From positions 1-64,000 of the forward strand of contig JAFDWX010000006.1 in NCBI GenBank assembly GCA_018268255.1: a stretch of DNA of 64,000 bases, given 5' to 3'. This stretch comes from Armatimonadota bacterium (GTDB lineage Bacteria; Armatimonadota; Fimbriimonadia; Fimbriimonadales; Fimbriimonadaceae). Below the pieces are notes generated by a model, which was not told the origin of the DNA, ran no database searches, and saw only the letters and a program-made list of their open reading frames with translations. Position numbers and translations under genes: made by a program. Below, one piece after another: positions 10,479 to 46,233 of the stretch (positions within the stretch are counted from its first letter, which is position 1; the number at the start of each line of letters is the position of its first letter).

Positions 10479-10948
10479 AGGCAAAGAGCATTAGTGCGCC
10501 GCGAGTCGTGATTTCTCGAAGGGCTTATGCGAACATGTGCGCTTTTCGCCAAAGGGCAAATGAGAGTGAGGCTGGCGGCATTCTAATCGGAGCATTCTTT
10601 CCGACAAAGAACGAGTATCACGTTTGTGTAGCGACGAGACCAAGTAGATTTGATCGCCGGGGTCGATACTTTTTCCATAGGGACGCGAAGAATGCGACGC
10701 GCATTGCACGGCGATTTTGGAGCCTGAGCGATGGTCAGCTGCATTATTTGGGTGAGTGGCACTCACATCCCGAGCCCGTTCCGCGTCCGTCGATAACCGA
10801 TAAGATCACAATGGGAAGGCTTAGAAAGGATTCAACCACCGTCGCAGGATGTCTGATGTTGGTGATCATTGGTCAGGAAACTGACTGGATCGGCTTCTGG
10901 TCCGAGAGCGGCTATAGTCACATTTGCTTCGAGATAGCTGACGAATAG
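10463..10948 (+). CDS. cap3: Cap3: JAMM/JAB deconjugating peptidase of CBASS
   Basis: 161 residues. The JAMM zinc-metalloprotease motif is complete: the Glu in ESEAGGILIG (near residue 35) and HSHPEPVPRPSITD (near 100), giving HxH...D. Cap3 removes Cap2-made conjugates from the CD-NTase and tunes the system. ATG 10463 follows AGGAGGTGAG closely and overlaps cap2 by 16 bp. It is the last gene of the plus-strand string; the integrase gene approaches from the other side with a 67-bp gap. Confidence 0.92.
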   Translation: MRSLLKAKSISAPRVVISRRAYANMCAFRQRANESEAGGILIGAFFPTKNEYHVCVATRPSRFDRRGRYFFHRDAKNATRIARRFWSLSDGQLHYLGEWHSHPEPVPRPSITDKITMGRLRKDSTTVAGCLMLVIIGQETDWIGFWSESGYSHICFEIADE

Positions 10949-11015
10949 GCGCTTCGGGTAGCTCAGAGAATAGCCGAGGTTGACTCGGAGCATGTCCGCT
11001 CTAGCGCCTGAGAAC

Positions 11016-12164
11016 TTAGTCGTTGGAAAGGGATGGATTGGGGCAATACGCATCCTGTAGTCTCTCAGCGGCATCACGCATCGCCCCATCCAGCACGTGC
11101 CCGTACAGGTTTGAAGTCAACGCTATCTGAGAATGCCCGAGATAGCGGCTGACCTGGTGGAGGTTCAGACCCGCCATCAGCATAAAGGTAGCGGCTGAGT
11201 GCCGGAGGGAATGCATTCCAGTGCGGGGAAGTCCTGCCTTCTCCAAGGCGACGTGCAGGTAGTCGTTGACGTATTTTGGGTCGAAGGGACGCCCCCACGG
11301 GTTTAGGAAAACGAGGTCGAGTTCGTTGTCATATCCCTCATCTTCTTGACGGTTGCGCTCCCTCCGGACCACGTCCAGGGAGTGGCCAACGAGGGGCATC
11401 GTCCGCATACTTTTCTCGGTCTTGAGTGGCTTGAGCACGAGCTTCTTACCCATGCGCTGAAGTTGAGAGGAAACAAGGATGGTTTTCTGCTTGAGGTCCA
11501 CGCCGTCCCAGGTGAGGCCAGTTACCTCTCCGATCCTCATGCCCGTGGCAAGAGTGAACTTGACCAGGTTCTCTATGGGTGAGCCCTCCAGTGCAGTCAG
11601 CAACTTCTGAACTTGCTCCGCATCGAAATACACCTTGGCGTTGCGCTTCACCTTGGGAGCGAACGTCTTGGACACGGGGTTGTCATGTGCCTCACCAAAC
11701 TTCATCGCGACGCCGTACGCCGCCCGTAACGTGCGTCGAGCGGCGGCGATGGTGTTTGCAGTCGCTCCGTCGTCTTCGATGGTCTTAAAGAGCCTTGTGA
11801 CATCCATGGGCGTCACTTGCTGAAGTTCCATCCGCCCGAGGTAGGGCTTGATCCTCCGTTCGCACATGAGGCGATAGAACTCGTACGTCTTGAACTCACG
11901 ATTGGGCTTGACGTGCTCTTCAAGCCAAACATTGAGCCACGAGGACACAGTGTGTCCACGCCGGTCCGGAATCGAGCGACCGGCGACGAGCATCGCATTC
12001 AGCTCATTGAGGGCCTTGACCGCGTCACCCTGCGTCCGACAGCTCACCTGGCGATACTTCGGACGGCCCTCAGGGGTGAAACCATCTTGCACCTGAGCGA
12101 CATACTTCTTGCCACGCTTGAAGATGCTTCCGGAGCCTTTCTCTCGTCTTCCTGATCGGGCCAT
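11016..12164 (-). CDS. int: Tyrosine recombinase (island integrase)
   Basis: 382 residues. An N-terminal AP2-like arm-binding segment (GSIFKRGKKYVAQVQDGF) is followed by a core-binding SAM-like domain (about 65-160) and the catalytic domain. The catalytic set is visible: Arg in GMRIGEVTGL, HSLRHSAATF (His-x-x-Arg), His in YLGHSQ, and Tyr in NLYGHV near the C-terminus. It is the only recombinase in the window and sits 150 bp from the tRNA fragment it presumably targets. Transcription runs toward the CBASS genes. Direct repeats in its upstream region may be its own arm-type sites. Confidence 0.93.
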   Translation of the reverse strand: MARSGRREKGSGSIFKRGKKYVAQVQDGFTPEGRPKYRQVSCRTQGDAVKALNELNAMLVAGRSIPDRRGHTVSSWLNVWLEEHVKPNREFKTYEFYRLMCERRIKPYLGRMELQQVTPMDVTRLFKTIEDDGATANTIAAARRTLRAAYGVAMKFGEAHDNPVSKTFAPKVKRNAKVYFDAEQVQKLLTALEGSPIENLVKFTLATGMRIGEVTGLTWDGVDLKQKTILVSSQLQRMGKKLVLKPLKTEKSMRTMPLVGHSLDVVRRERNRQEDEGYDNELDLVFLNPWGRPFDPKYVNDYLHVALEKAGLPRTGMHSLRHSAATFMLMAGLNLHQVSRYLGHSQIALTSNLYGHVLDGAMRDAAERLQDAYCPNPSLSND

Positions 12165-12166
12165 TT

Positions 12167-12210
12167 CTGCAGTTTATTCTACTCTCGTCTGCAGTTTATC
12201 CGCAGTTTAC
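12167..12210. repeat. Three direct 11-bp repeats upstream of the integrase (candidate arm sites)
   Basis: CTGCAGTTTAT occurs at 12167-12177 and 12189-12199. A near copy, CCGCAGTTTAC, lies at 12200-12210. Spacing between starts is 22 and 11 bp, about two turns and one turn of the helix. Their place between the integrase start and the attachment site, and the AP2-like arm-binding N-terminus of the integrase, fit arm-type binding sites. They would also cover the integrase promoter. Confidence 0.5.
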
Positions 12211-12255
12211 CGAGCGGAAATCAGTGGTCAAAAGCGGTCTTCAGTGGACTTTCTA

Positions 12256-12272
12256 GGTTCAAGTGTTGAACC
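12256..12272. other. Perfect inverted repeat between integrase and attachment site
   Basis: GGTTCAA and TTGAACC flank GTG. No T-run follows on either side, so it is not an obvious terminator. It may be an accessory protein or excisionase site. Confidence 0.35.
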
Positions 12273-12315
12273 TGAGCGGACGATTCTGAACGCCGATGGA
12301 TTTGACATTCTGATT

Positions 12316-12360
12316 CTCTTAATCAGCGGGTCGAAGGTTCGAGCCCTTCACGGTCCACCA
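12316..12360 (+). other. tRNA-Lys(CUU) 3' half: island attachment site (attR-type)
   Basis: From the anticodon loop CTCTTAA the text continues as a tRNA 3' half: stem strand TCAGC, a T-arm GAAGG-TTCGAGC-CCTTC with five base pairs, the acceptor strand ACGGTCC, discriminator A and encoded CCA. The matching 5' half (expected GGACCGT with a TAGCTCAG D-arm) is absent from the preceding 100 bp. So this is a displaced half, not a working tRNA. A break at the anticodon loop is typical of tyrosine-recombinase integration. The intact tRNA should be at the other end of the island, left of base 1. Confidence 0.8.
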
Positions 12361-12372
12361 AGATTTGAACTG

Positions 12373-12405
12373 AAAGCCCTTCGGAAACCGAAGGGCTTTC
12401 TTGTT
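12373..12405 (+). terminator. Rho-independent terminator of the former tRNA-Lys gene
   Basis: AAAGCCCTTCGG and CCGAAGGGCTTT form a 12-bp stem around AAA, followed by CTTGTTTTT. It sits 12 bp after the tRNA CCA, so it is the original tRNA terminator kept on the chromosomal side. Confidence 0.85.
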
Positions 12406-13122
12406 TTTGACGGCAGAGTAGATCTGGAAGTCCTAGGGTAGCTCATCACCGATCCAGCACCGCCTAAGATACTTCCTTGTTGATGCCACCCGCCAATCCA
12501 ACTTCAGAACGTTCAAGTAGCTCATATTCTGCTCCGGTGAGATTTCTGACCATCTCAAAAAGGCCAGCGACGATGTCGCGCAGGATGGCGATTGGCAATT
12601 GGGGAAGGTTGCTAAGGTGGTTCCTCTCTCGGTGTCCAGTTGCCGTACGACGTCGCCACCAGAGCCACCATCTGGATGTAGATCTGCTTGAAACACCACG
12701 TACTGATCGTAAGTCGCTGAATATCCCGTGTTTGGGTGCAATAGCGAACAGTGCCGCGCCCCCGGTGGAGTTGTTCGTCAACATGCCTGGCGGACGTCTT
12801 TGGCACCCAGCGGCTCCGTCCTTAGGCCTGGACCCTAACAAGTGAGCCGAGCGGCAATAGCCAGTGCGAAGCCGCTCCGCCGCAGCCCCTTAAGGTTTAG
12901 GTTCAAAATCCCTTCCCATGGCGGGTTTGTTTGTACTGATGAAGGGCTATCCGGCAAGAACCTCGTGGGCCGTTCCTCAACGTTCGAGAAGCAACCGAGC
13001 ACCAGGAAGAAGACATTCCAATCGCTCCGTCCGACTCAACGAGGCCTTCGCTATACTGATTACAGGCGTCGCAAGGGAGCGACGAAGTTATCGGCGCTCG
13101 ACTCGCGACTGGAGGTTAAGTT
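12406..13122. other. About 700 bp without a recognisable gene
   Basis: Open frames occur on both strands, the longest on the minus strand at 12464-12841 (containing LSNLPQLPIAILRDIVAGLF). They overlap each other in several frames and lack a Shine-Dalgarno sequence or a family I recognise. It may be an old gene remnant at the island boundary. The right end is the leader of the pyruvate oxidoreductase gene, with a possible -10 (TATACT, 13052-13057) and a GGAGG at 13111-13115. Confidence 0.45.
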
Positions 13123-16100
13123 GTGGATCGCTGGATAACTATTGCCGGCAACGAAGCGGCAGCCCGTATCGCCTACAAGGTAAGCGAAGTCATCGCAATT
13201 TATCCCATCACCCCGTCGAGTGACATGGGAGAGTTGTGCGACCAGTGGAGTGCTGAGGGACTCCAGAACATCTGGGGGACTATCCCAACTGTCCGGGAGA
13301 TGCAGTCGGAGGGCGGTGCTGCAGGGGCTGTCCACGGCGCAATTCAAGCCGGATCGCTTTGCACCACGTTCACGGCAAGCCAGGGCCTGCTGCTCATGAT
13401 CCCAAACATGTTCAAGATTGCGGGAGAACTCAGTCCTGCGGTCTTTCACATTTCAGCCAGAACGGTCGCCACGCACGCACTTTCCATTTTTGGGGACCAT
13501 AGCGATGTGATGGCCTGCCGGCCGACGGGATGGGCAATGCTCTTCGGAGGTTCCCCTCAAGAAGTTCAGGACTTGGCGCTGATAGCCCACTCGGCCACGC
13601 TCAAAGCTCAAGTGCCGTTCCTCAACATCTTCGATGGGTTTAGGACGTCTCACGAAATCCAGAAAATCGTGCCTCTGGATGATGCTGAGATCAAATCGAT
13701 GATCGATGAGAAGTTGGTCGCTCAGCATCGCTCCCGATCCATGAATCCGGATCATCCGACCATACGGGGAACGGCTCAAAACCCGGACGTCTTCTTCCAG
13801 ACTCGCGAGGCCGTAAATCCGTTCTATGATGCGACGGCTGGCATCGTCGCCGACACGATGGACCAGTTCCACAAGCTCACGGGGAGACAATACAACCTAT
13901 TTGACTACATCGGTTCGCCACAAGCTGAAAGGGTCATCGTGATGATGGGTTCAGGCAGCGAATGCGCGGAAGAAGCCGTGCGAGCGCTCAACGCAGCGGG
14001 AGAAAAAGTCGGACTTGTGAAAGTACGCCTATTCCGCCCATTTGATGGTGAGAAGTTCATGCAAGCGTTGCCGCCAACGGTCCAGTCCATCGCCGTTCTG
14101 GATCGCACCAAGGAACCCGGCGCAGTTGGCGAACCTCTGTTCCAAGAGGTGGTGACTGTTCTCGCCGTCCATGGCCATCCTGCGGCTCCCAAGACGATCG
14201 GCGGACGGTACGGACTATCGTCTAAGGAATTCACGCCTACCATGGTCAAGGCTGTCTTCGATGAACTCAACAAGCCTGAACCGAAGAGGCACTTCACGGT
14301 GGGAATCCACGACGACATCACCCACCTCAGCCTGGACCTGCCAGAGATTTTCGACACGGAAGATCCCCTGGGTTACCGAGCTGTCTTTTGGGGCCTAGGC
14401 GCCGATGGAACGGTTGGTGCCAACAAAAACACGATCAAAATCATCGGCGAGGAAACTCCAAACTATGCGCAGGGGTACTTTGTCTACGATTCCAAAAAGT
14501 CGGGATCGGTCACGGTTTCCCACCTGCGTTTTGGGCCGAACCCCATCCGATCGACCTATCTAATTCGCCAAGCGAATTTCGTCGGAATCCACCAATTTGG
14601 CCTTATTTTCCGATATCCGGTGCTGGATCGCGCAGCTCCCGGTGCGACGGTGCTGCTCAACAGCCCATTTGGTCCCGAGGAAACCTGGGAGAGGCTCCCA
14701 CGGACCTTCCAACAGGAGGCTCTGGCCAAGGAGATCAAACTTTACGTGCTGGACGCCTATCAAGTCGCTCAGGAAACCGGGATGGGCGTTCGGATCAATA
14801 GCATCATGCAGACTGCGTTCTTCGCGCTGTGCGGAATCTTGCCACCCGAGGAGGCTGTGGATAAGATTCGCCACGCGATCGAGAAGACGTATGGCAAGCG
14901 TGGCCCGCAAGTGGTCGCCCAGAACTTCGCCGCAGTGGACCAGGCGCTGGCCCATATGCACGAGGCAAAACTGGGGAAGGCTTCCAGCGATATCGATGCA
15001 GTCGAACCGGTCAGTGCAAGCGCGCCAGCGTTTGTACGCGACGTCTTAGGAGAAATCATCGCCCTGCGCGGTGATGACCTACCCGTAAGCGCTTTTCGTG
15101 ATGTCGGGACCTATCCCACTGGCACAACTCAGTATGAGAAGAGGAGTATCTCTCTCGATATTCCCGTCTGGGATCCTGCCATTTGCTCTCAGTGTGGTAA
15201 GTGCGTTCTCCTCTGTCCTCATGGCGCGATGCGAGCCAAGGTGATCCGGGTCGAGGACCTGAAGAACGCTCCACATTCGTTCCACTATGCAGATGCCGCC
15301 AAGTTCCGAGGCGGGGAAGGGCTCGCCTACGTGATCGAAGCCTCGGCGGAAGATTGCACGGGCTGCGGACTGTGTCTGGAGGTTTGCCCCGAAAGAGGAA
15401 CGACGCCAGAGCACGCCGGTGCCAGTCTAGAGCATGTGGACGTCATCCCCGAATCGAACAAGGAGAACTGGGAATACTTCGTCAACTTGACCGACGAGCC
15501 CGCTCTGCCTGAGACACCGATCTTTGACAACGCCAAGGCGCTGCAATTGATCCGGCCGCTCTTCGAATTCTCCGGAGCGTGCGCAGGATGTGGCGAAACT
15601 CCCTATCTCAAACTCCTTTCGCAACTTGTCGGAGATCGTTTGCTGATCGCAAACGCAACCGGCTGCTCCAGCATCTTCGGAGGCAACTTGCCCACGACGC
15701 CATGGTCCAAGGATTCTCATGGACGAGGGCCGTCGTGGAACAACTCGCTGTTTGAGGATAACGCTGAGTTTGGACTTGGAATGCGGCTCAGCATCGACAG
15801 CCAGCGTGACCGAGCGTTTTCCATAATCAAGAAAGAGCGATCAGCGATCGGCGACGACCTAGTGGATCAACTTTTGGCTCCAGAGAAATATGGTGATCCA
15901 GATGCTCTGAAAGCACGCCGCGAGGTGGTCGACCAGCTTCGAGCCAAGCTGCAGGGCCAATCAAGTGAAGAACTTGCCGCGCTTGCCAGCTTGGCGGATT
16001 CGCTCGTTGATCGATCCGTGTGGATTGTCGGTGGGGACGGCTGGGCTTACGATATCGGGTTCGGCGGTTTGGACCATGTGCTCGCAAGCCAGAACAGAGT

Positions 16101-16662
16101 CCGGATTCTGGTTTTGGACACTGAGGTCTATTCCAACACCGGTGGCCAAGCTTCCAAATCGACACCGCGTGCGGCGGTTGCCAAGTTCGCGACAGCTGGC
16201 AAGCCAACGGGAAAGAAAGACCTCGGTCGCATCGCCATGACCTACGGCCATGTGTATGTCGCCGAAGTCGCTATCGGAGCGGACGACAATCAAACGATCC
16301 GCGCGTTCCGGGAAGCCGAGGCTCACAACGGTCCCGCCATCATCGTAGCCTACTGCCATTGCATCGCACACGACTACGACATGAAGGAAGGCTACGCCCA
16401 GCAGAAGCGTGCGGTGGAAAGCGGGTACTGGCCGTTGTATCGATTCAACCCGGCTCGGGCGGAGCGCGGCAGAAATCCGCTGATGCTCGACAGCGCCGAT
16501 CCGACCATCCCCCTTCGCGATTACGTGGAGAAGGAAGGTCGCTATCGCGTGTTGATGCGTCGCGACCCTGAGCTGGCAGATGTGCTCTTATCAGAGGCAC
16601 AAAAGGACGTGGATCGAAAGTGGCTAGCGCTATCGAGGCTGGCAGCAACGAAGGAGCCTTAA
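13123..16662 (+). CDS. nifJ: Pyruvate:ferredoxin (flavodoxin) oxidoreductase
   Basis: 1179 residues, the usual length of the single-chain homodimeric enzyme. It converts pyruvate plus CoA to acetyl-CoA and CO2, passing electrons to ferredoxin or flavodoxin. The N-terminal domain has YPITPSSDMGELCDQWS. Two [4Fe-4S] ferredoxin motifs lie near residues 688 (CSQCGKCVLLCP) and 746 (CTGCGLCLEVCP). The thiamine-diphosphate domain starts near 820 (CAGCGETPYLKLL, NATGCSSIFGGN) with GGDGWAYDIGFGG near 970. GTG 13123 is chosen for GGAGG 7 nt upstream. A flavodoxin gene follows directly, the pairing typical of NifJ. The enzyme is oxygen-sensitive, pointing to anaerobic or microaerobic pyruvate use. Confidence 0.95.
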   Translation: MDRWITIAGNEAAARIAYKVSEVIAIYPITPSSDMGELCDQWSAEGLQNIWGTIPTVREMQSEGGAAGAVHGAIQAGSLCTTFTASQGLLLMIPNMFKIAGELSPAVFHISARTVATHALSIFGDHSDVMACRPTGWAMLFGGSPQEVQDLALIAHSATLKAQVPFLNIFDGFRTSHEIQKIVPLDDAEIKSMIDEKLVAQHRSRSMNPDHPTIRGTAQNPDVFFQTREAVNPFYDATAGIVADTMDQFHKLTGRQYNLFDYIGSPQAERVIVMMGSGSECAEEAVRALNAAGEKVGLVKVRLFRPFDGEKFMQALPPTVQSIAVLDRTKEPGAVGEPLFQEVVTVLAVHGHPAAPKTIGGRYGLSSKEFTPTMVKAVFDELNKPEPKRHFTVGIHDDITHLSLDLPEIFDTEDPLGYRAVFWGLGADGTVGANKNTIKIIGEETPNYAQGYFVYDSKKSGSVTVSHLRFGPNPIRSTYLIRQANFVGIHQFGLIFRYPVLDRAAPGATVLLNSPFGPEETWERLPRTFQQEALAKEIKLYVLDAYQVAQETGMGVRINSIMQTAFFALCGILPPEEAVDKIRHAIEKTYGKRGPQVVAQNFAAVDQALAHMHEAKLGKASSDIDAVEPVSASAPAFVRDVLGEIIALRGDDLPVSAFRDVGTYPTGTTQYEKRSISLDIPVWDPAICSQCGKCVLLCPHGAMRAKVIRVEDLKNAPHSFHYADAAKFRGGEGLAYVIEASAEDCTGCGLCLEVCPERGTTPEHAGASLEHVDVIPESNKENWEYFVNLTDEPALPETPIFDNAKALQLIRPLFEFSGACAGCGETPYLKLLSQLVGDRLLIANATGCSSIFGGNLPTTPWSKDSHGRGPSWNNSLFEDNAEFGLGMRLSIDSQRDRAFSIIKKERSAIGDDLVDQLLAPEKYGDPDALKARREVVDQLRAKLQGQSSEELAALASLADSLVDRSVWIVGGDGWAYDIGFGGLDHVLASQNRVRILVLDTEVYSNTGGQASKSTPRAAVAKFATAGKPTGKKDLGRIAMTYGHVYVAEVAIGADDNQTIRAFREAEAHNGPAIIVAYCHCIAHDYDMKEGYAQQKRAVESGYWPLYRFNPARAERGRNPLMLDSADPTIPLRDYVEKEGRYRVLMRRDPELADVLLSEAQKDVDRKWLALSRLAATKEP

Positions 16663-16693
16663 GGGCTCAGAACAAGGATTGAAGGAGTAAAGA

Positions 16694-17200
16694 ATGGAAG
16701 TTAAGCTGTTCTTCGGAAGTTCAACGGGAAATACGGAACGATGCGCAAAGATCGTCCACGCCAAGCTTAAGGATCTCATCGCTGAGATCATCGACATGCG
16801 CAAGGCAAGCGTCGAGGATTTCGACTTCTGCGACGGGTTCATCTTGGGTCTGCCCACCGTAGATGAGGGCCTGCTGCAAGAAGACTGGCGAAGGTTCTGG
16901 GATGAGGTCGAAGATGTCGACTGGGATGGAAAGACGGTTGCCATATTCGGCCTGGGTGATCCCGTCAAATACGGAAAGTGGTTCGTAGATGGGATTGGAA
17001 TTGTGGCCGACAAACTCACTTCTTGCGGCGCGAAAGTCGTTGGTGAGTGGCCCAACGAGGGCTATTTGCCATTTGAGAGCAGCAAGGGACTGCGCAATGG
17101 CAAGTTCTTGGGGCTGGTGCTGGACGAAGACAATCAAAAAGAAATGAGCGAGGAGCGGATAGACCGGTGGTGCAACCAAATCCGGCCTTCCTTTACCTAG
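16694..17200 (+). CDS. Flavodoxin
   Basis: 168 residues, the typical length of long-chain flavodoxins. The FMN phosphate loop is FFGSSTGNTERCAK at residues 5-18. GLPTVDEGLLQEDW and FGLGDPVKYGKWF are the further FMN-binding loops. It lies 31 bp after nifJ with AAGGAG upstream of ATG 16694, and is the probable electron acceptor of the pyruvate oxidoreductase. hypA begins 1 nt after its stop, tying this electron carrier to the hydrogenase block. Confidence 0.92.
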   Translation: MEVKLFFGSSTGNTERCAKIVHAKLKDLIAEIIDMRKASVEDFDFCDGFILGLPTVDEGLLQEDWRRFWDEVEDVDWDGKTVAIFGLGDPVKYGKWFVDGIGIVADKLTSCGAKVVGEWPNEGYLPFESSKGLRNGKFLGLVLDEDNQKEMSEERIDRWCNQIRPSFT

Positions 17201-17201
17201 G

Positions 17202-17543
17202 ATGCACGAAGTCGGAATCATCCTGAACGCCATTGAATTGGCGGTGGAGAAAGCCGAGGCTGCTGGTGCCACCAGCATTTCTCGGCTTTGCCTCCGGGTC
17301 GGAGCTCTGTCGGGCGTCGTGCCCGATGCGCTTGAGTTCGGGTTCGACCTAGCTTCTAAAGGCACGATGGCCGACCACGCGAAACTCGAAATCGTGCAGG
17401 TTCCTGCCAGGTGCCGTTGTGCTAACGGGTGTGGCGAGTTTGAGCCAGATAGCCCAGTCTACTCGTGCCCTGCCTGTGGTGCCATTTCGAGCATTGTTTT
17501 GCAAGGTAAGGAGCTTGATCTTGTAGAAATCGATGTCAATTAA
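17202..17543 (+). CDS. hypA: Hydrogenase nickel-insertion protein HypA
   Basis: 113 residues, the standard size. The nickel-binding MHE is at the N-terminus (MHEVGIILNAIELAVEKAE). A zinc-finger region near 70-95 has CRCANGCGEF and CPACG. HypA with HypB delivers Ni to the large subunit. It is the only hyp gene on this side of the hydrogenase operons; the other five lie at 29,517-34,875. Its TAA stop overlaps the stop of the convergent protease gene (TTAA at 17540-17543). Confidence 0.93.
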   Translation: MHEVGIILNAIELAVEKAEAAGATSISRLCLRVGALSGVVPDALEFGFDLASKGTMADHAKLEIVQVPARCRCANGCGEFEPDSPVYSCPACGAISSIVLQGKELDLVEIDVN

Positions 17544-18028
17544 GCTTTTATTAGCGAAGTTGAGACTGCTTTGATGAGAGCTAGGACCTTGTCAGTCGCA
17601 GGTTTGATGGCAGCCTCGATTTCCGGTGATAGGCCCATGCGAAAGCGGGTCGGAATTTCGGTCTCCACCACAATCACTGCGAGGTGCTGAGGCATGGGCA
17701 ACATGAGCCTCTCGGCGAGATCGAATATCTCCGGTAATCCCGAGTAATGGGCTGAAGGTGCGCTTACACGGCGAAATTGGGAACGGTCCAACACACTCAC
17801 GGTTCCCACCGGCACTTGGCCCGATTGAATGGAATCTACGATTACCGCCGCGTCGCGTCCGCTGAGGTGCTCCATCAAGGTGAAACCAGCCTCCGCGCTT
17901 TCGATCACCTCGACGAGCGCAGGGTCAACAAACTCCCCGGCGTGGCGGGCGATGCACAGCCCCACTCCGTCATCGCCCGCCAGATCATTGCCGAGCCCCA
18001 AGATCAGGAACCTCGGCGGGTTTTTCAC
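17540..18028 (-). CDS. Hydrogenase maturation protease for the group 3c hydrogenase
   Basis: About 162 residues. ILGLGNDLAGDDGVGL near the N-terminus carries the nickel-sensing Asp; the second acidic position lies in AVIVDSIQ and a His in APSAHYSGL. The family (HyaD/HycI/HoxW) removes the C-terminal tail of the large subunit after Ni insertion. The open frame extends further upstream, but GTG 18028 overlaps the large-subunit stop (GTGA) and starts right before the conserved text. It is the last gene of the leftward hdr-mvh operon. Confidence 0.85.
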   Translation of the reverse strand: MKNPPRFLILGLGNDLAGDDGVGLCIARHAGEFVDPALVEVIESAEAGFTLMEHLSGRDAAVIVDSIQSGQVPVGTVSVLDRSQFRRVSAPSAHYSGLPEIFDLAERLMLPMPQHLAVIVVETEIPTRFRMGLSPEIEAAIKPATDKVLALIKAVSTSLIKA

Positions 18029-40132: not shown

Positions 40133-40801
40133 TTACTGAGGTGCAGCATTTTTGCTGGGTGGGATATCGAGACTGAAGAACTCAAGAATGTCATCGAGCC
40201 TGTCTGACTCTCCCGCGCAGGAGTCCGAGATAATTTTTGACTGAGTTTGCGCGTTTTCAATCCTCTTTTTCCAATTTTCGACCTCAGCTTCGAGTCTCAT
40301 TATTTCCAACTGCGCCTTGGTAACAAATTCTTCGACTTGCTTCTCGAATCCGTCGGAGTAAGAAGCCAATGCGGCAAGTTTTCTGCTTGCGTCGGCAATG
40401 ACGCTCTCCTTGCTGGCTTGGCCCGTGGTTGCCATTGCCTTGAGTGTGATTCCCATGGTTGCCCGTCGTGCCTCTATCGGCAGTTCGGCGGGAAATTCGG
40501 AGATGATCGACAATGCTTCGTTGGCGCCGAACGCCACTGTTGTCAGTTTCGCTAGGGAATAGATCGCCGCAAAATCCACGGTGCCGTCGGGTCTGATGAC
40601 AGGCTTTTGCTCCTCGGGCTTGGCTGCAACTTCGTTCAAGGCGGGTCCTGGTGTGTTCTGAACGATCTGCTCTACGGTCTTGGGGACTGGAGGGGGCTCC
40701 GAACTGGCTGACGTTGGCGAGATTCCAGCCTCAGATTCACTCTCATCAAATTCGACGAATAGCCCTGCGGCTTTGCGAAGTTTGTCTCGGATGCTGCTCA
40801 T
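40133..40801 (-). CDS. Unknown coiled-coil protein, last gene of the ABC/OmpA operon
   Basis: 222 residues, not recognised. A disordered Pro/Glu-rich stretch (about 20-70) is followed by a helical domain: VDFAAIYSLAKLTTVAFGAN, then FPAELPIEARRATMGITLKA, and a coiled coil about 150-195. No membrane segment or signal peptide. The gene follows the 304-aa membrane-associated coiled-coil protein after 25 bp, so both may act with the transporter encoded upstream. Confidence 0.65.
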   Translation of the reverse strand: MSSIRDKLRKAAGLFVEFDESESEAGISPTSASSEPPPVPKTVEQIVQNTPGPALNEVAAKPEEQKPVIRPDGTVDFAAIYSLAKLTTVAFGANEALSIISEFPAELPIEARRATMGITLKAMATTGQASKESVIADASRKLAALASYSDGFEKQVEEFVTKAQLEIMRLEAEVENWKKRIENAQTQSKIISDSCAGESDRLDDILEFFSLDIPPSKNAAPQ

Positions 40802-40826
40802 AGTCTTCTGCTCCTATTGTAAGTCT

Positions 40827-41741
40827 TTAGCTCCCGTAGAGCTCTTCTGCACCGCGTTCCAGCTCGGCTTGGTCAAACGGGGATACTTCCTGCAGTCGTT
40901 CAGTCAGGGAGTCTGTCTGGCTGACCACCATCTCGATATCGGCAATCACCTGTTCTGGGGAAAGCGTTCGAATCTGGTCGTTGATCATCCCAAAGGTGTC
41001 CTCCATCAGGTCTAGTTGGTGCCGAACATTGAGCAAAGTCTCGCCTATTTTCTCCGCGAATTCTTTCCTACGCGTGAGAACTTCCTGTCTTTTTTCCAAA
41101 ACGGCTTGAGTATGTAGATTCGTTTGGGGATCGACCTCACTTGCGATGGACTCTATTTGTTCTTGGTAATGCGCTTGGATCTTCGCGATCGCTTTTCTCA
41201 CGCTTTCGTCCGTTCCCAGAAGTCCCCCTGTCGAGGGCAACTCATAATTTGGCCCAGGTTTCCGCTTTTGGATGACTGGCGGTGCAACGGCATGGGGATC
41301 GGCTTCCGCCAAGATGGAAAGAAGATACTGCTCGAATTGGCCCTGCTTTGCGCCGAAGACAAGGAACTTCTCCATCATGTAGTCCAATTTTCGAAGCAGA
41401 TTTCGAAACCACTTCTTGCCCTCATACATTCGATCTCCAACTTGGTTTCGAATAACCTCGAGCTTTTCGAACCGTCGTTGGGTACCCGGCGTCAGCGATT
41501 GCCAGACTTCATTTCGCAAATTCTGGCGGCGTTGGAGCACCTCCTGATCGTATTTGGATTCCAGCCGAGCTGCATACCAGTTGCTTCCTGGTACGAACGC
41601 CAGATAGGCTGACTCTGCGACGAGCCCGATGAGAAACGGCAAGGGATTAAGGGTTGCGAATGATGCTGCCGCCAAACCAGCCAGGCCAATCATGTTGGCA
41701 GGTTCTGAGAAAGCCTCTTTATAGGGATTGCCGGTCGGCAT
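40827..41741 (-). CDS. Unknown protein with one hydrophobic segment and long coiled coils
   Basis: 304 residues, not recognised. After a short N-terminus, ANMIGLAGLAAASFATLNPL and PFLIGLVAESAYLAFVPG (about 16-50) are hydrophobic and may anchor it to the membrane. The rest is charged and helical, with coiled coils about 55-130 and 185-275. It starts 31 bp after the ABC ATPase stop on the same strand. Co-transcription with a binding protein carrying an OmpA domain suggests an envelope-spanning assembly. Confidence 0.65.
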   Translation of the reverse strand: MPTGNPYKEAFSEPANMIGLAGLAAASFATLNPLPFLIGLVAESAYLAFVPGSNWYAARLESKYDQEVLQRRQNLRNEVWQSLTPGTQRRFEKLEVIRNQVGDRMYEGKKWFRNLLRKLDYMMEKFLVFGAKQGQFEQYLLSILAEADPHAVAPPVIQKRKPGPNYELPSTGGLLGTDESVRKAIAKIQAHYQEQIESIASEVDPQTNLHTQAVLEKRQEVLTRRKEFAEKIGETLLNVRHQLDLMEDTFGMINDQIRTLSPEQVIADIEMVVSQTDSLTERLQEVSPFDQAELERGAEELYGS

Positions 41742-41772
41742 CGGATTTCTGAATTTACCCGCGCAGGACCCT

Positions 41773-42603
41773 CTACAGGGATACGCGCACCTGTCCTCCA
41801 GTGCCGCCTTGCGTCTTGAGGAGAGCGATCAGCGACTGGCTCAACTTTTGGAATAGGTCATCAAATTGTATTTCGGCAGATCGAGGCCTTGGGAATGGGA
41901 CGATCAGGTCCTGAATGATCTTTGCTGGTTTGGTTGAAAGAACCAGGATTCGGTCGGCCAAAAGAAGAGCTTCTGTAATATCGTGGGTGATGAAGAAAAT
42001 CGTGCTCCTTTCTTCTTCCCAAATTTTCAGGAGCATCTGTTGCATATCGGTACGGATGCTCGCATCGAGTGCCCCAAAAGGTTCATCCATCAGAAGCAGG
42101 CGAGGCTTGACGGCCAATGCTCGGGCGATCGCAACACGTTGCTGCATCCCCCCAGATAGTTCGTTGACTCTTGCTTCCGCACGGTCTGCCAAGCCTACTT
42201 TGGCGAGGTATTCCTCGGCTATCTGGTTTGCCTCAGACCGTGATTTGCCCTGGAGGTCTAGGCCAAACCGCACGTTTTCCAATACCGAAAGCCACGGGAA
42301 ACAAGTGTACGATTGCGGCACAGTGACGGCATCCGGATTGTGATCAGTGATGGGTTTACCATAACATTGGACAATTCCTGAATCTGGTTCCAGAAGGCCG
42401 GATAGCATGTTCAAAACGGTGCTCTTTCCTGACCCTGACGGCCCAAGAATAGCAACGAATTCGCCATTAGGATGATCCTCGACGGAAAATGTCAAATGGT
42501 CCAGGACCACAATGGGCTCGCTCCCATCCCTTTTGTCTGAAGGAAACGACTTGCAGACATTTTCGAATTGGATAGCAAGTGGCTTCGGTTGGTCTGTTAC
42601 CAT
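41773..42603 (-). CDS. ABC transporter ATPase, nitrate/taurine (NitT/TauT) family
   Basis: 276 residues. Walker A is ILGPSGSGKSTVLNMLSG near 64, the Q-loop VPQSYTCFPWLSVLENV, the signature LSGGMQQRVAIARALAVKP and Walker B LLLMDEPFGALD. ATG 42603 overlaps the permease end by 7 bp and has AGAGG upstream; an in-frame ATG 12 codons earlier is less likely. It powers import with the permease and binding protein encoded just upstream. The substrate cannot be told from the ATPase. Confidence 0.92.
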   Translation of the reverse strand: MVTDQPKPLAIQFENVCKSFPSDKRDGSEPIVVLDHLTFSVEDHPNGEFVAILGPSGSGKSTVLNMLSGLLEPDSGIVQCYGKPITDHNPDAVTVPQSYTCFPWLSVLENVRFGLDLQGKSRSEANQIAEEYLAKVGLADRAEARVNELSGGMQQRVAIARALAVKPRLLLMDEPFGALDASIRTDMQQMLLKIWEEERSTIFFITHDITEALLLADRILVLSTKPAKIIQDLIVPFPRPRSAEIQFDDLFQKLSQSLIALLKTQGGTGGQVRVSL

Positions 42604-43370
42604 GGGAAGAACCTCTTCTGAATCGACTTTAGCAGCCAATCCGTGGCTGCCGAAATGAGGGCGATGAGTATTAACGTGCCAAACACTTTGCCCGAATCCT
42701 GAGTTCGGCTGCCAACCGACAGCAGATAACCAAGCCCTATTTGTTCTTCATTGCTGTTGATGAACTCAGCGAGAACAATGTAAGTCCACATAATCCCGCT
42801 GCAAACGGCAATCGCTTCCCAAATTTGGGGCAACGCGGCAGGGAAGAGGATTTTCGAGACGACCTGCATAGGAGTGGCTCCTATATCCTCTGCAACGCGG
42901 ACGTAATCTTCCCGCACGGACTGAAACGCAGCTCGAACCAGGAGGATCATGTAGAAAATCGCACCCAAGAACAGGAAAATGATCTTGGCCCGTTCTTCGA
43001 TCGAGAACCACAAAACAATAAGACCCGCAAGTCCCGTAGTTGGAATGCTCTTGCCACCATTGATCAGTTTTCGAAAAACCGCATCAAAATGTGAGAAAGA
43101 CCCCATCAAAGCACCGAAGGGCACCCCTACGGCAACCACCAATAACAGGCTCAGGAGCACCCTCTTGGTGCTGTTAAGGATGGCTGGCACAAGCCAGCCT
43201 GACTTGTTGAATGCAGCCAGACCTTCCAAGATGTAAGTTGGAGTGGGCAGGAAGAGGGGCTTGACGAGCCCTCCATAGGTTGCTCCTGCCCACGCCGCAA
43301 GGAATACTCCTATTCCAGCCAAACCAAGAGCTAGATCAACTCTTGGACTAACCTTTTGCCTAACCTCCAT
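42597..43370 (-). CDS. ABC transporter permease, NitT/TauT (SsuC/TauC) family
   Basis: 257 residues with about six membrane helices. The EAA-type cytoplasmic loop is EDIGATPMQVVSKILFPAAL, near 160. It starts 6 bp after the binding-protein gene. The family imports alkanesulfonates, nitrate, thiamine precursors and similar small anions; the substrate is not determined here. Confidence 0.9.
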   Translation of the reverse strand: MEVRQKVSPRVDLALGLAGIGVFLAAWAGATYGGLVKPLFLPTPTYILEGLAAFNKSGWLVPAILNSTKRVLLSLLLVVAVGVPFGALMGSFSHFDAVFRKLINGGKSIPTTGLAGLIVLWFSIEERAKIIFLFLGAIFYMILLVRAAFQSVREDYVRVAEDIGATPMQVVSKILFPAALPQIWEAIAVCSGIMWTYIVLAEFINSNEEQIGLGYLLSVGSRTQDSGKVFGTLILIALISAATDWLLKSIQKRFFPW

Positions 43371-43376
43371 GATCGT

Positions 43377-44957
43377 TTATCGAGGAACGACCATGACATC
43401 GGTTCGACGGTTCTTGGCTCGTCCTTCAGTCGTAGCGTTTGAGGAAACTGGCTTGTTAGGTCCGTTACCTTTTGGCACAAATCGCTCCGCCTTAAGCCCG
43501 TAGTGATTAACCAAGTAGTTCACTACTGCCTGAGCCCTTTTTTGGCTGAGGGTCGTGTTGGTTGCCGCCGAGCCCACGTTGTCGGTGTTACCTTCGACTC
43601 GAATGTAGGCGTTTGAATAAGTTTGAGCAAGGGTGGCCACGCTATCGAGCAACTGTCTGCCGTTATCATCCAATTCCGAAGATCCGGTGGGGAAGTAAAG
43701 GCTCAGAGGTTTGGTCATGACGGGTTTTTCGCTTTCGACCTCTTTCGGCGGAGTCTTTGGATAGTCGAACTCCTCCTTTTTCGTTGTCGTTCGCTCCTCC
43801 CGCGGAATTGCGGCAAAGAGCTCTCGCAGCGTGGTAAGCGAAGTAGCTTGATCCGGGGTGATCTTTTGGCTCACATAGCCATATGTCACCCACGCATCGC
43901 TTGCATCGGAAAAGATTCGATTGAAGAGCGGCTCGCTCCCGTCCAAACCGAACATCTTGGAGTTATCCGCTAGGTCGGCCCACTTAACGGTGCCAATGTT
44001 GTCCCTGGTAACGTCTGGGCCGAGATCTTTGTAAAGCGGCTCGTTGTCCATGAGAAGGTTCACAACCTTTTCAGTATTTCGGTTTGCTTCTTCTGTGCCT
44101 TCGAACCAGCCAGCCACAAAGGCTTTGACCACATCCGGATGTTGCTGAATGAATTCCTCTCGGGCAATCATCAAGTCGGCAATCAGGTTGGCGGCGGTTT
44201 TGGTGCTTACGAGGATTTTGCTCCCGGGCCGCTTGCTCAGCGACTCGGCTACGTCGGGCTCCCAAACTACGGCCGCATCAACTTTGCCCGCCACGAAGTC
44301 CATCCTGGCGTCCGGTGAGGCATTCTTGCCGACCAGCGCCTTGACAATACGAGATTGTTCGGTCGGATCCAAACTTGAGTTCTTTAGGCTTGAGACTAAC
44401 AGCCAGTGTGAGGGAGTAAACAGAGCAAGGCTGATTTTCTTCCCGCGAAGATCCTCAATGCGATTAATGGACCTGTCGACAACGATAGCGTCCCCTCCGC
44501 GAGACCAGTCGACTTGCATGATGGCCCGTGCAGGGGTTCCGCCCTTCCGGAATCCCGGAGCTTCATTGGCAAAGAAGTCGACCGTTGACCAGACGATATC
44601 GATATCGCCTTTCGCGAAGGCTTTGGCGCGGACGTCCACATCTTCAACGAGTTTGAACTCGACCAGAAGTTTGTGGTTGTTCCAGTAGATACAGGTCTTG
44701 TTAGGCGCAAATCCGTTGTTTGCCGTGACTCCGCCCATATATCCGGGCCAGGTGACGATTCCGACGCGCAAAGGTCGCCCTAAAATTCCTTGCTCGCCCT
44801 CGATGGATACTCCTCCAAAGCCTGCTGTATTGGCTGAACCCGAGGCAGTCGTGCTTCCGCCCTTTTGGGTCTGCTGGTACAGCTTATAAGCCCCCAGAGC
44901 CAGTCCTGCAACGAGGAGAACGACAACCACACCGCCTACCGGTTTAAGTTTTGCCAT
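43377..44957 (-). CDS. ABC solute-binding protein fused to a C-terminal OmpA domain
   Basis: 526 residues. The N-terminus has a membrane anchor, VGGVVVVLLVAGLALGAY. The middle (about 60-390) is a TauA/NMT1-like type II binding fold (LRVGIVTWPGYMGG, DIDIVWSTVDFFANEAPG, RGGDAIVVDRSI). The C-terminal ~110 residues are OmpA-like: LYFPTGSSELDDNGRQLLDS, then VEGNTDNVGS and SQKRAQAVVNYLVNHYGL, ending with NRRTDVMVV. That domain normally binds peptidoglycan, so the receptor would be tied to the cell wall. ATG 44957 is chosen with AGGAGC upstream. Confidence 0.9.
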   Translation of the reverse strand: MAKLKPVGGVVVVLLVAGLALGAYKLYQQTQKGGSTTASGSANTAGFGGVSIEGEQGILGRPLRVGIVTWPGYMGGVTANNGFAPNKTCIYWNNHKLLVEFKLVEDVDVRAKAFAKGDIDIVWSTVDFFANEAPGFRKGGTPARAIMQVDWSRGGDAIVVDRSINRIEDLRGKKISLALFTPSHWLLVSSLKNSSLDPTEQSRIVKALVGKNASPDARMDFVAGKVDAAVVWEPDVAESLSKRPGSKILVSTKTAANLIADLMIAREEFIQQHPDVVKAFVAGWFEGTEEANRNTEKVVNLLMDNEPLYKDLGPDVTRDNIGTVKWADLADNSKMFGLDGSEPLFNRIFSDASDAWVTYGYVSQKITPDQATSLTTLRELFAAIPREERTTTKKEEFDYPKTPPKEVESEKPVMTKPLSLYFPTGSSELDDNGRQLLDSVATLAQTYSNAYIRVEGNTDNVGSAATNTTLSQKRAQAVVNYLVNHYGLKAERFVPKGNGPNKPVSSNATTEGRAKNRRTDVMVVPR

Positions 44958-45135
44958 AGATGCTCCTAAGATTCTCCAAGAGTCAATATACCGATTCGGG
45001 AACAGGGTGGTTGCAGTTCCAAAACTGGACAGCGCGAGTGGTGCTGCCAAACGAACTGGGAGAATCTTGATGTTAAGGTCACAGGAATTCTCGCAGGAAC
45101 CGCCCCCCGCGGGCCGAATAGAAGACTCAGTTCTC

Positions 45136-46233
45136 ATGGAATCCTCTCATCAACCCCGCGGACGGATAGGCATCCTTACCGCGGGGGGAGACTGCGCCGG
45201 TCTCAACGCGGTTATCGCTGGAATCGTCAAATACGGCATCTCGGTCGGATACGAGTGCTTCGGGTTCGAGAAAGGCTTTGAGGGTGTCCTCAGCCCGATC
45301 CTGATGCGCCCACTAACCTTGGACGTTGTCCGAGGGATCAGTCACCTCGGCGGAACCATTCTCCACTCCACCAACCGTGGGAGATTCGGTGCCAAAAAAG
45401 GTGAAGGTGAATCCGCATCTATCCCGTCCGAAGTCTTGGACGAGGCGGAGCATAACCTCAAATCCCTGGGCATCGATGCGCTCATCGTGATCGGCGGAGA
45501 CGGCTCTCTCAGCGGCGCCCTCCAACTTGCGGGGCGCGGAATCAAGATCATCGGAGTTCCCAAGACCATTGACAATGATCTTGCTGCAACGGATCAGACT
45601 TTTGGATTTTCAACCGCGCAGGCCGTGGCCGTCGAGGCGATAGATCGAGTCCACACAACCGCTACGAGTCACGACCGAGTGATTTTTGTTGAAGTCATGG
45701 GGCGGCACACTGGCTGGATTGCGCTTAAAGCGGGCTTGGCTGGCGGTGCCGACGCGATCCTGTGTCCTGAGTTCGCATTCGATATCGAAGAACTCGTGCG
45801 ATTCCTCCGCGAGCGAAAGCGATCGACGACGCGTTCTGCCATCGTCGTCGTTGCCGAAGGAGCAACCATCGCTGGAGAGCATGTGCTCGACGATATTACA
45901 GCTGGGATGGAAGTGCACTTCGGTGGGATCGCCGAGCGAATCCGTCGTGAAATCGAAGTCCGTGCACCGGGCGAATTCGAAATGCGGTCGACGATTCTGG
46001 GGCATATGCAACGAGGCGGCACTCCCAATGCCCGCGACCGAAACTTGGCGAAGGCGTATGGCGTCGGAGCAATCGACGCTCTTTTGGCCGGCGAGGACAA
46101 GGTTATGGTGAGCCTGCGAGATGGAGCCATCCTCCGCGTGCCCATGGAAAAAGCGGTCTCCCGACTCAAGACAGTCGATGAGACGACGCTGGAATACCAA
46201 ACCGCGCGCAAGCTTGAAGTTTTTATTCACTAA
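45136..46233 (+). CDS. pfkA: 6-phosphofructokinase, group III type
   Basis: 365 residues. The N-terminal phosphate loop is ILTAGGDCAGLNAVIAG. The residue pair that marks the phosphoryl donor is mixed: GGDGS has the Gly of ATP enzymes, while PKTIDND has the Lys seen in pyrophosphate and actinobacterial group III enzymes. ATP use is likelier, but PPi activity cannot be excluded. GRHTGWIALKAGLAGGADAI and GHMQRGGTPNARDR form the active site. ATG 45136 is used rather than the earlier frame opening at 45007. A terminator follows. Confidence 0.9.
   Translation: MESSHQPRGRIGILTAGGDCAGLNAVIAGIVKYGISVGYECFGFEKGFEGVLSPILMRPLTLDVVRGISHLGGTILHSTNRGRFGAKKGEGESASIPSEVLDEAEHNLKSLGIDALIVIGGDGSLSGALQLAGRGIKIIGVPKTIDNDLAATDQTFGFSTAQAVAVEAIDRVHTTATSHDRVIFVEVMGRHTGWIALKAGLAGGADAILCPEFAFDIEELVRFLRERKRSTTRSAIVVVAEGATIAGEHVLDDITAGMEVHFGGIAERIRREIEVRAPGEFEMRSTILGHMQRGGTPNARDRNLAKAYGVGAIDALLAGEDKVMVSLRDGAILRVPMEKAVSRLKTVDETTLEYQTARKLEVFIH

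Follow-up and report, generated by a model that had tools for sequence, protein, structure and literature searches.

Operons in which PspA and a membrane-anchored (TM) Snf7 homologue are associated with an ABC ATPase, a permease, and a PBPB-OmpA protein, e.g., OGG56892.1, have been described (Ravi et al. 2024, PMC11237479). Here, we analyzed a 64,000-nucleotide stretch of an Armatimonadota contig (JAFDWX010000006.1, hereafter "the window") that carries, at 40133-44957 on the minus strand, a tight five-gene operon, which is best read, by sequence comparison, as a variant of these PspA/ABC/SBP-OmpA operons. The window shares with them the fusion of a solute-binding and an OmpA domain, the permease, and the ATPase. 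It differs in that PspA and an AAA+ protein, which occur in the versions of two related genomes (G019 and G045), are absent from the window operon, which instead contains two protein families that we name by their lengths, the 304-aa and the 222-aa protein. As to the TM-anchored Snf7 homologue of Ravi et al., the 304-aa protein has a membrane hairpin and helices and displays no profile similarity to PspA-like proteins, although it may be a remote relative. In the PSP literature, the association is mentioned in a single passage (Ravi et al. 2024, PMC11237479), and the locus supplies a concrete sequence for it. We propose, with a confidence that we put at about even, that the operon encodes an ABC module anchored in the envelope and devoted to membrane-wall maintenance, whose ABC complex would be fixed between the inner membrane and the wall.

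All five genes called in a first-pass annotation were recovered at their positions in an ORF check of the window. In the order of transcription (all on the minus strand), they encode a 526-aa SBP-OmpA fusion receptor (43377..44957, with an ATG at 44957 and an open frame that begins upstream, at 45137), a 257-aa ABC permease (42597..43370; PF00528, BPD_transp_1, 83.4 bits at a cut-off of 26.4), a 276-aa ABC ATPase (41773..42603; PF00005, ABC_tran, 115 bits at a cut-off of 25), the 304-aa membrane-hairpin helical protein (40827..41741), and the 222-aa protein, a putative soluble coiled-coil adaptor (40133..40801). The ATPase ATG at 42603 overlaps the permease stop, and an alternative in-frame TTG start lies at 42639. 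From the receptor to the 222-aa gene, the successive junctions measure 6 bp, a 7-bp overlap, 31 bp, and 25 bp. Because the genes recur together across Armatimonadota, we do not attribute this arrangement to chance.

The receptor was found to combine, as had been suggested, a membrane anchor, a solute-binding domain, and an OmpA domain, as judged by Pfam and hydropathy. Its N-terminal anchor (44889..44939; Kyte-Doolittle hydropathy of 2.6 over 17 residues) is preceded by K-L-K-P. The NMT1-like solute-binding domain (Pfam match region 44079..44627) scores above the cut-offs of both PF09084 and PF13379 (NMT1 score of 35.2 bits versus 20.5), while the OmpA domain of the peptidoglycan-binding type (43407..43697; PF00691, 79 bits at a cut-off of 27.2) carries a TD..G..N..LS..RA-type motif and has its nearest solved counterpart at E = 3.5e-17. 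Upon scanning 855 ORFs from the window and the fetched loci, where receptor classes were assigned via locus and frame length, a strict anchor motif matched 28 ORFs, namely 26 SBP-OmpA and 2 SBP2 receptors and no others; for comparison, 235 ORFs have an N-terminal TM-like stretch. The anchor of the window receptor resembles those of the other receptors, yet the final Lys of the strict motif is missing from it, and it falls outside the 28 matches. Against the proposed maintenance module, many further receptors in the surveyed loci also fail the strict anchor motif, the strict OmpA motif pattern is absent in eight correctly read fusions, and the transporter parts look intact.

Such an apparently intact transporter fits a second reading, to which we assign a clearly lower probability, namely that the operon imports a small anion or sulfonate-like nutrient by a Tau/Ssu/Nrt-type mechanism, with a receptor that is incidentally tied to the wall and with the 304-aa and 222-aa proteins acting as cytoplasmic scaffolds or ATPase regulators. 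The window shares its SBP, permease, and ATPase superfamilies with the NMT1-type Tau/Ssu/Nrt importers, its NMT1, BPD_transp_1, and ABC_tran domains all exceed their cut-offs, and the solute-binding part is closest to TauA among solved structures (E = 1.4e-10). Among the matches listed, the ATPase is nearest to the NtrCD, taurine, and SaoA models and the permease to TauC, all below cut-off; more generally, the NCBIfam importer models (taurine, sulfonate, nitrate, urea) stayed below cut-off among the best 25 of 195 for the ATPase, the best 25 of 27 for the permease, and the best 25 of 43 for the receptor. The window nevertheless differs from these importers by its receptor anchor, its OmpA domain, and two extra conserved genes.

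These two extra genes had both been annotated as coiled coils, a description that holds for the 222-aa protein, whereas a membrane hairpin with a helical bundle describes the 304-aa protein better than a simple coiled coil does. The hydrophobic hairpin of the latter (residues 14-49, 41595..41702, minus strand) has a mean hydropathy of 1.28 over this 36-residue stretch in the window protein and contains a Glu43 that is invariant in both alignments, and the AF2 model of the whole protein reaches a pLDDT of 84.3 and a pTM of 0.77. For the 222-aa protein (pLDDT 84.0, pTM 0.56), alignment and AF2 point to a conserved helical domain and long helix (residues 77-210, 40172..40573, minus strand), including a helix predicted to span 80 residues (131-210). 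An amphipathic N-terminal helix of this protein was set aside as a membrane anchor: In the window protein, 23% of shuffles attain its moment, and the share drops below 5% in 5 of 25 family members.

Family searches left both proteins unnamed: Neither window protein has a Pfam match above cut-off or an NCBIfam family. Weak Pfam matches among relatives were discarded, since for the 304-aa family (best E 3.9e-4) each occurred in 1 of 24 members and for the 222-aa family (best E 1.9e-4; best 25 of 52 families) in at most 6 of 25, with no agreed family in either case. PspA_IM30/Snf7 was found by Pfam neither in the window proteins nor in the 24 relatives of the 304-aa protein, nor among the best 25 of 52 Pfam families for the 25 relatives of the 222-aa protein. 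Profile comparison of both families with PspA or TelA by hhalign, mostly single-sequence and of low power, likewise yielded no similarity; either family may still be a divergent member of the PspA/ESCRT-III superfamily. A resemblance of the 222-aa protein to TAL-effector repeats in a PDB profile was set aside as chance, given that no single stretch passes alone and the best one covers about 26 residues. At the structural level, Foldseek matched neither model to a PDB entry at E <= 0.001, and the missing profile and fold matches count against the maintenance module. The VIA-align rows of the 304-aa protein fall within the chance range of helical bundles and were rejected, including the best one (6xss, Z 12.2, rmsd 11.2, 182 residues aligned), the BAR-type rows (Z 7 to 8.4), and 5vo5, a structure of Lgd with the ESCRT-III protein Shrub (Z 7.1, rmsd 2.4 over 66 residues). 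The best structural row of the 222-aa protein was 9hqv_Bq (Z 5.6, rmsd 11.1, 129 aligned). Taken together, these comparisons speak neither for nor against an ESCRT-III fold.

We surveyed 291 genomes of the phylum, counting loci by tblastn, and found the 304-aa family in 46 and the 222-aa family in 43 of them. A fusion search at E <= 1e-40 distinguished the type of the window (type a, at least 53% identity; 10 genomes) from a second type (type b; 30 genomes). The 304-aa family is present in 39 of the 40 genomes that carry a type a or b fusion, and the fusion is linked to it in 36 of 41 cases (type a, 9/10; type b, 27/31), while the 222-aa gene lies within 9 kb of the 304-aa gene in 37 of 50 loci. 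The two partner genes are thus conserved beside the fusion, where their lack of conservation in other genomes had been named beforehand as the outcome that would speak against a joint assembly. The 50 loci with a 304-aa gene comprise 9 with a type a transporter, 27 with type b, 1 with a type-b ATPase alone at a contig end, 6 with an SBP2 receptor and no SBP-OmpA transporter, and 7 with no nearby receptor, of which two lie at contig starts and one has a transporter about 14 kb away. A scan of genome contigs with one short pattern of the 304-aa protein gave 29 loci, from which a restriction of the family to the phylum does not follow; plasmids yielded no match to the 304-aa or 222-aa protein or to two divergent 304-like proteins.

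In a tree of 48 rows, the 304-aa protein of the window is sister to one that accompanies a type-b transporter (support 100/96), and its clade (99/98) of 13 rows holds 9 of type b, 2 of type a, and 2 with none. The label a requires 6 changes on this tree, 4 of them forced by well-supported branches. As read from this tree, receptor/transporter cassettes are exchanged around the 304-222 pair, with receptor and transporter being interchangeable. That the same partners accompany different receptor families argues against a plain importer, as does the occurrence of SBP2-304 and SBP2-222 pairs with no adjacent SBP-OmpA transporter.

A link to envelope stress, which had also been suggested, gained support from the gene content of relatives. 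PspA follows the 222-aa gene in three genomes (G004, G019, and G045), and in the latter two an AAA+ gene follows in turn (Pfam was run on the G019 copies of both); in G019 and G045, the PspA in the operon is the sole match of the whole genome. The presence of PspA and AAA+ in some operons speaks against an importer. Against the maintenance module, however, the single PspA match of the window genome lies on another contig and none is in the operon; likewise, tblastn found no match (E <= 1e-4) to the G019 AAA+ protein within 9 kb of the 304-aa gene of the window. PspA occurs in all 46 genomes with the 304-aa family, but as it is near-universal in the phylum (223/291 genomes), this co-occurrence says little, and we discarded it as evidence.

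In the maintenance module that we favor, the receptor would be fixed in the membrane by its N-terminal helix, which follows a short basic stretch (K-L-K-P-V-G in the window), while its OmpA domain would grip peptidoglycan. Held in both membrane and wall, it would therefore, we propose, keep the solute-binding domain over its own permease with a fixed spacing. The hairpin of the 304-aa protein would insert beside the receptor anchor, and the 304-aa and 222-aa proteins would form a cytoplasmic scaffold beneath the transporter. Ligand binding or an altered membrane-wall distance could then change the ATPase cycle, a change that the scaffold would relay to membrane repair of the PspA/ESCRT-III type, which is encoded within the operon in some lineages and, in the window genome, at another site. 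What the sequences themselves show is the domain make-up, the operon, its co-inheritance, the receptor/transporter exchange, the PspA and AAA+ genes of some relatives, and the phage relatives (see below), two of which encode a membrane PspA-like protein; the topology, peptidoglycan binding, protein contacts, a possible signal, and the connection to repair are inferred. The initial view of an envelope assembly rather than a simple importer is supported in its receptor architecture, conserved partners, and envelope-stress link, although an importer role is compatible with it.

A different kind of envelope function is suggested by an operon on the Vibrio plasmid pSEA2, of similar make-up (SBP-OmpA, VWA, a TM-hairpin coiled coil, and TelA). 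In this operon and in XpaC-TelA pairs, as in the window, a gene for a membrane-hairpin coiled coil precedes one for a soluble helical protein, and SBP-OmpA and ABC genes lie next to them; pSEA2 differs by extra VWA and SBP genes, and its partners have no detectable homology to the 304-aa or 222-aa protein. By this analogy, the window operon might confer Ter/TelA-type protection against toxins, antimicrobial peptides, or superinfecting phages via a sub-membrane scaffold, which we regard as improbable. A transcriptome table from a study of membrane-protein overproduction in L. lactis lists raised ratios for XpaC-like and telA1 genes (10.3 and 3.44; PMC3139573), and a jumbo-phage review proposes a role of Ter/TelA in competition with superinfecting phages (PMC7824862). 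Yet Pfam identifies no TelA, TerD, or VWA among the five window genes. The 222-aa protein lacks a TelA domain (PF05816) by Pfam and its family is unlike one TelA by hhalign, and the 304-aa protein is unlike the Vibrio coiled coil, although these single-sequence tests have low power. Homology of the 304-aa protein was negative throughout, with PspA, with the 257-aa Vibrio protein, with the TM coils of Lak and a 735-kb phage (A6), and with gp247/MT835556 (A10), and the divergent 304-like proteins (A5) showed none with the Vibrio protein or A6.

Outside the phylum, where the fusion was sought in plasmids and phages only, full-length relatives of the receptor were found in megaphages, namely in Lak, phage G, and the 735-kb phage; one IMG/VR scan with the receptor of the latter confirmed nothing. 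In those that were read, the receptor relatives adjoin ABC genes. The profile phrog_25518 (phage G gp249/gp250, no assigned function) matches the window receptor at E = 1.2e-60, from residues 10-522 to positions 16-521 of 526, and differs in being phage-encoded. The receptor-permease-ATPase sets in megaphages count against a nutrient importer: With a wall-tethered ABC transporter and relatives in giant phages, the module resembles a machine for envelope upkeep more than an ordinary importer. More tentatively, Armatimonadota and the largest known phages (>490 kb) may have in common a mobile envelope-guard module of receptor, ABC transporter, and sub-membrane scaffold, which would preserve the host membrane and wall over the course of a long infection or exclude competing phages. 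The locus draws attention to two conserved families without Pfam or NCBIfam names, around which receptor and transporter are interchangeable, and to a module linked to megaphages. With it, one can directly test if PspA-type repair may rely on an ABC transporter as its membrane-wall gauge, and for what reason giant phages encode such a transporter.

In phage G, the scaffold of such a guard module would consist of a 222-family adaptor and a membrane PspA-like protein. Beside gp249/gp250, this phage encodes gp246, a homologue of the 222-aa protein, and the PspA-like gp247, while a search for a 304-aa homologue detected none. Contig MT835556 carries a membrane PspA above the Pfam cut-off, similar to the membrane PspA-like protein of phage G, and both extend the envelope-stress link to the phage side. 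The small proteins of Lak and the 735-kb phage gave no match to the MT835556 member and a match to the 222-aa protein that is suggestive only (prob 65, E 6e-5), and A6 and A10 match each other weakly (prob 39, E 3e-4). The PspA of the Armatimonadota operons matched the two phage-side TM coils at a prob of 73.7 (E 2.9e-5).

The window's operon runs on the minus strand of contig C6 (the window is part of this contig; genome size, 3.19 Mb) from 44957 to 40133 and consists of five genes spaced by 6, −7, 31, and 25 bp, which encode, in order, an SBP-OmpA fusion (a receptor with an N-terminal membrane anchor, a solute-binding domain, and a C-terminal OmpA domain), an ABC permease, an ABC ATPase, and proteins of 304 and 222 amino acids (hereafter 304 and 222, also for their families). 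The end of an opposite-strand gene lies 2 bp past the last gene, and a divergent phosphofructokinase gene lies upstream, across a short stretch (44958 to 45138) that may be a shared promoter region. The operon noticed by the first-pass annotation was described correctly: all five genes are in place. Pfam confirmed the transporter parts; among the matches listed, no NCBIfam importer model reached its cut-off for the window proteins. Neither 304 nor 222 matched a Pfam or NCBIfam family above cut-off, and no common Pfam family emerged among 24 relatives of 304 or 25 of 222. Using alignments of the window and the loci of named contigs (29 rows for 304, 25 for 222), AlphaFold2 predicted for 304 two hydrophobic helices (residues 14 to 49) followed by a helical bundle (pLDDT 84.3, pTM 0.77), and for 222 a small helical domain (77 to 125) and a helix (131 to 210; pLDDT 84.0, pTM 0.56). 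A PDB fold search with both models gave no confident match. Glu43 of the 304 hairpin was invariant in both alignments. Among the 29 contigs encoding 304, 26 carry taxon titles that we take to belong to Armatimonadota, two are titled only "bacterium," and one "Actinomycetota."

Profile searches of 291 genomes of the phylum found 304 in 46 and 222 in 43. Fusions of the window's kind (type a; E ≤ 1e-40, identity to the window's receptor 53% or more) occurred in 10 genomes, and a second kind (type b; E ≤ 1e-40), about 23 to 26% identical to that receptor, in 30. Nearly all genomes with either fusion also carried 304 (39 of 40), the sole exception, G161, having just a piece of a receptor at the end of a contig. 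The 304 gene was physically linked to 9 of 10 type a fusions (the tenth, in G196, being about 14 kb off) and to 27 of 31 type b matches, the other four being about 56 kb away (G004) or on separate or cut contigs (G149, G171, and G161). Conservation of the coiled-coil genes beside the fusion, on which the first-pass annotation had staked its reading, was borne out. Two same-genus genomes listed (G226 and G227) lacked 304, 222, and both fusions, and the locus is therefore accessory; neither fusion was present in 7 of the 46 genomes carrying 304. Six further genomes held fusions at 29 to 37% identity and no 304 match. In four of them (L131, L132, L134, and L136), the gene following the ATPase was readable and encodes a membrane-hairpin protein of 280 to 290 amino acids, whose profile matched that of 304 (probability 98.3, E = 1.9e-14, 245 columns) and, as a control, not that of 222 (probability 0.8).

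Of the 37 fusions read, 35 begin with a basic stretch followed by a hydrophobic helix, the other two being misread frames (G186 and G199). A strict anchor motif, [KR][LIV][KT][PAS]x[GS]K before the hydrophobic helix, which we defined after viewing the receptors, matched 28 of 855 open reading frames (ORFs) in the window and fetched loci, namely 26 fusions and two copies of SBP2, another membrane-anchored receptor (classed by locus and frame length), and no other ORF, though 235 have an N-terminal transmembrane-like stretch; the motif misses the receptor of the window itself (K-L-K-P-V-G-G), along with many others. The OmpA-type pattern TD..G..N..LS..RA was found in 27 of 37 fusions, the window's among them, and was absent from eight correctly read ones.

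A census of 50 loci with 304 showed that the transporter varies: type a in 9, type b in 27, a type b ATPase alone at a contig end in G171, and SBP2 without an SBP-OmpA transporter within 9 kb in 6 (the SBP2 of G019 is SBP_bac_11 by Pfam; the G093 locus has two other ABC ATPases nearby). Seven loci had no nearby receptor, with G149 and G118 close to contig starts and the G196 transporter about 14 kb off. The 222 gene lay within 9 kb of 304 in 37 of 50 loci, and three of the 13 without it are at contig ends (G172, G199, and G006). A tree of 304 covering 48 of the 50 proteins, with two fragments left out, placed the window's copy as sister to one with a type b transporter (100/96), inside a 13-row clade (99/98). 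The type a label required 6 changes, 4 of them forced by well-supported branches; shuffled labels went as low in 31 of 500 cases. This placement and these changes indicate that the receptor/transporter cassette was swapped around the 304-222 pair. SBP2 is also followed by distant relatives of 222 in stretches lacking a 304 match (L083, L084, L085, and L089). In L083 (5989 to 7895), L084, L085, and L089 to L092, SBP2 adjoins just one such gene, either 222-like or 304-like, and neither a permease nor an ATPase was matched within the stretch; these are candidate receptor-plus-scaffold pairs without transport. As side observations made by eye, L063 (1590 to 3296) encodes a 568-aa phosphodiesterase/phosphatase-like protein with a signal-like N terminus between SBP2 and 304, and distant 222-like proteins follow ParB-like proteins in two genomes (L086, 7861 to 9901; L097, 5986 to 7915). 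In L063, too, genes resembling ParA and ParB are found downstream of 304-222.

Membrane maintenance genes lie in some of these operons. By tblastn, a PspA-like gene directly follows 222 in G004, G019, and G045 (PF04012 in G019, 53.1 bits versus a cut-off of 33.9), and the gene after that encodes an AAA+ ATPase in two of them, G019 and G045 (84.8 bits in G019). Each of these two genomes has one PspA match overall, which is therefore the operon copy. In published operons of PspA or TM-Snf7 with AAA+, genes for an ABC ATPase, a permease, and a PBPB-OmpA protein can also occur, and membrane remodeling has been proposed to be linked to solute transport (Ravi et al. 2024, PMC11237479). The window operon is a variant of these PspA/ABC/PBPB-OmpA operons, alike in its transporter but with 304 and 222, and without PspA or AAA+ in the operon. 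The first-pass annotation had proposed a wall-tethered importer, maybe an envelope-spanning or stress-sensing assembly; of these readings, a putative envelope assembly has more support than a simple importer, and peptidoglycan binding by the receptor is a prediction.

The most surprising relatives, beyond what the first-pass annotation had found, are in megaphages. Outside the phylum, we searched plasmid and phage records for the fusion. It matched 885 plasmid records, none at 80% coverage, and 42 of 50,697 phage records, 20 of them with 80% coverage or more (15 Prevotella Lak phages, two records each of Bacillus phage G and a 735-kb phage, and MT835556, a 38-kb contig labeled "UNVERIFIED: Bacteriophage sp."; identity 22 to 31%). 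PHROGs grouped the window's receptor with phage G gp249/gp250 (phrog_25518, unknown function; E = 1.2e-60). We read the neighborhoods in 3 of 15 Lak phages (A1, B4, and C1), one of two records each for the 735-kb phage and phage G, and MT835556. The Lak and 735-kb order is small protein, transmembrane coiled coil, SBP-OmpA, permease, and ATPase, with short ORFs between in Lak; Pfam supports the Lak-A1 receptor and ATPase and the 735-kb receptor, permease, and ATPase. Phage G encodes a permease, gp243 (83.4 bits), an ATPase, gp245 (114 bits), and gp246 to gp250; its GenBank notes label the parts "ABC-like transporter permease," "ABC transporter," and "OmpA/MotB domain." MT835556 shows permease, small protein, transmembrane coil, and SBP-OmpA, with no ATPase within the stretch read; its permease and that of Lak-A1, which lacks a Pfam match, were named by eye. 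In Lak-B4 (L168, 11678 to 14317), as judged by eye, an insert with repeated stretches resembling homing endonucleases seems to interrupt the ABC ATPase frame, which is continuous in Lak-A1 and Lak-C1.

Gp246 and its MT835556 counterpart matched the 222 profile (probability 97.6, E = 2.9e-12, 143 columns) and, in a control, not that of 304. The MT835556 coil is a PspA_IM30 protein above cut-off (42.4 versus 33.9); gp247 is 33% identical to it and alone scores just 10.8 bits, and together they matched the Armatimonadota operon PspA at probability 73.7 (E = 2.9e-5). For the Lak and 735-kb small proteins, kinship to 222 is only suggestive (probability 65, E = 6e-5; 304 control, 0.4; against the MT835556 member, 1.0), and their transmembrane coils gave no 304 match and an unclear one to PspA-like coils (probability 39). 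The megaphage kinship rests on the full-length receptor match and synteny, with 222 as a profile-supported putative common adaptor for phage G and MT835556 only.

Among the best-ranked literature matches listed, judged by title and the opening of the abstract, none describes the module in Armatimonadota or megaphages; a supplementary table may list it. The SBP-OmpA/ABC set goes unmentioned in passages of PMC7162821, PMC8346664, PMC8297831, PMC7824862, and PMC12363816. Passages of the first, citing its supplement, state that huge phages encode proteins with a predicted membrane or surface location, which could influence whether other phages infect, and those of the last that a pspA-like gene adjoins terD in Jug phages. 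With a Vibrio fusion as query, we found the 595-kb uncultured phage LR756511 (L164), where 9168 to 17727 seems, by eye, to encode a receptor, VWA, SBP-OmpA, a transmembrane protein, a coiled coil, an SBP lipoprotein, a permease, and an ATPase; two proteins scanned matched no Pfam family. By eye, this operon resembles that of Vibrio alfacsensis plasmid pSEA2 (L129, 3792 to 13154), which comprises an ABC ATPase, a receptor (OmpA match below cut-off), VWA, SBP-OmpA, a transmembrane-hairpin coiled coil, a further SBP, and a permease, but also has TelA, between the coiled coil and the further SBP. Six Vibrio plasmid records carry relatives of the pSEA2 coiled coil, TelA, and SBP-OmpA.
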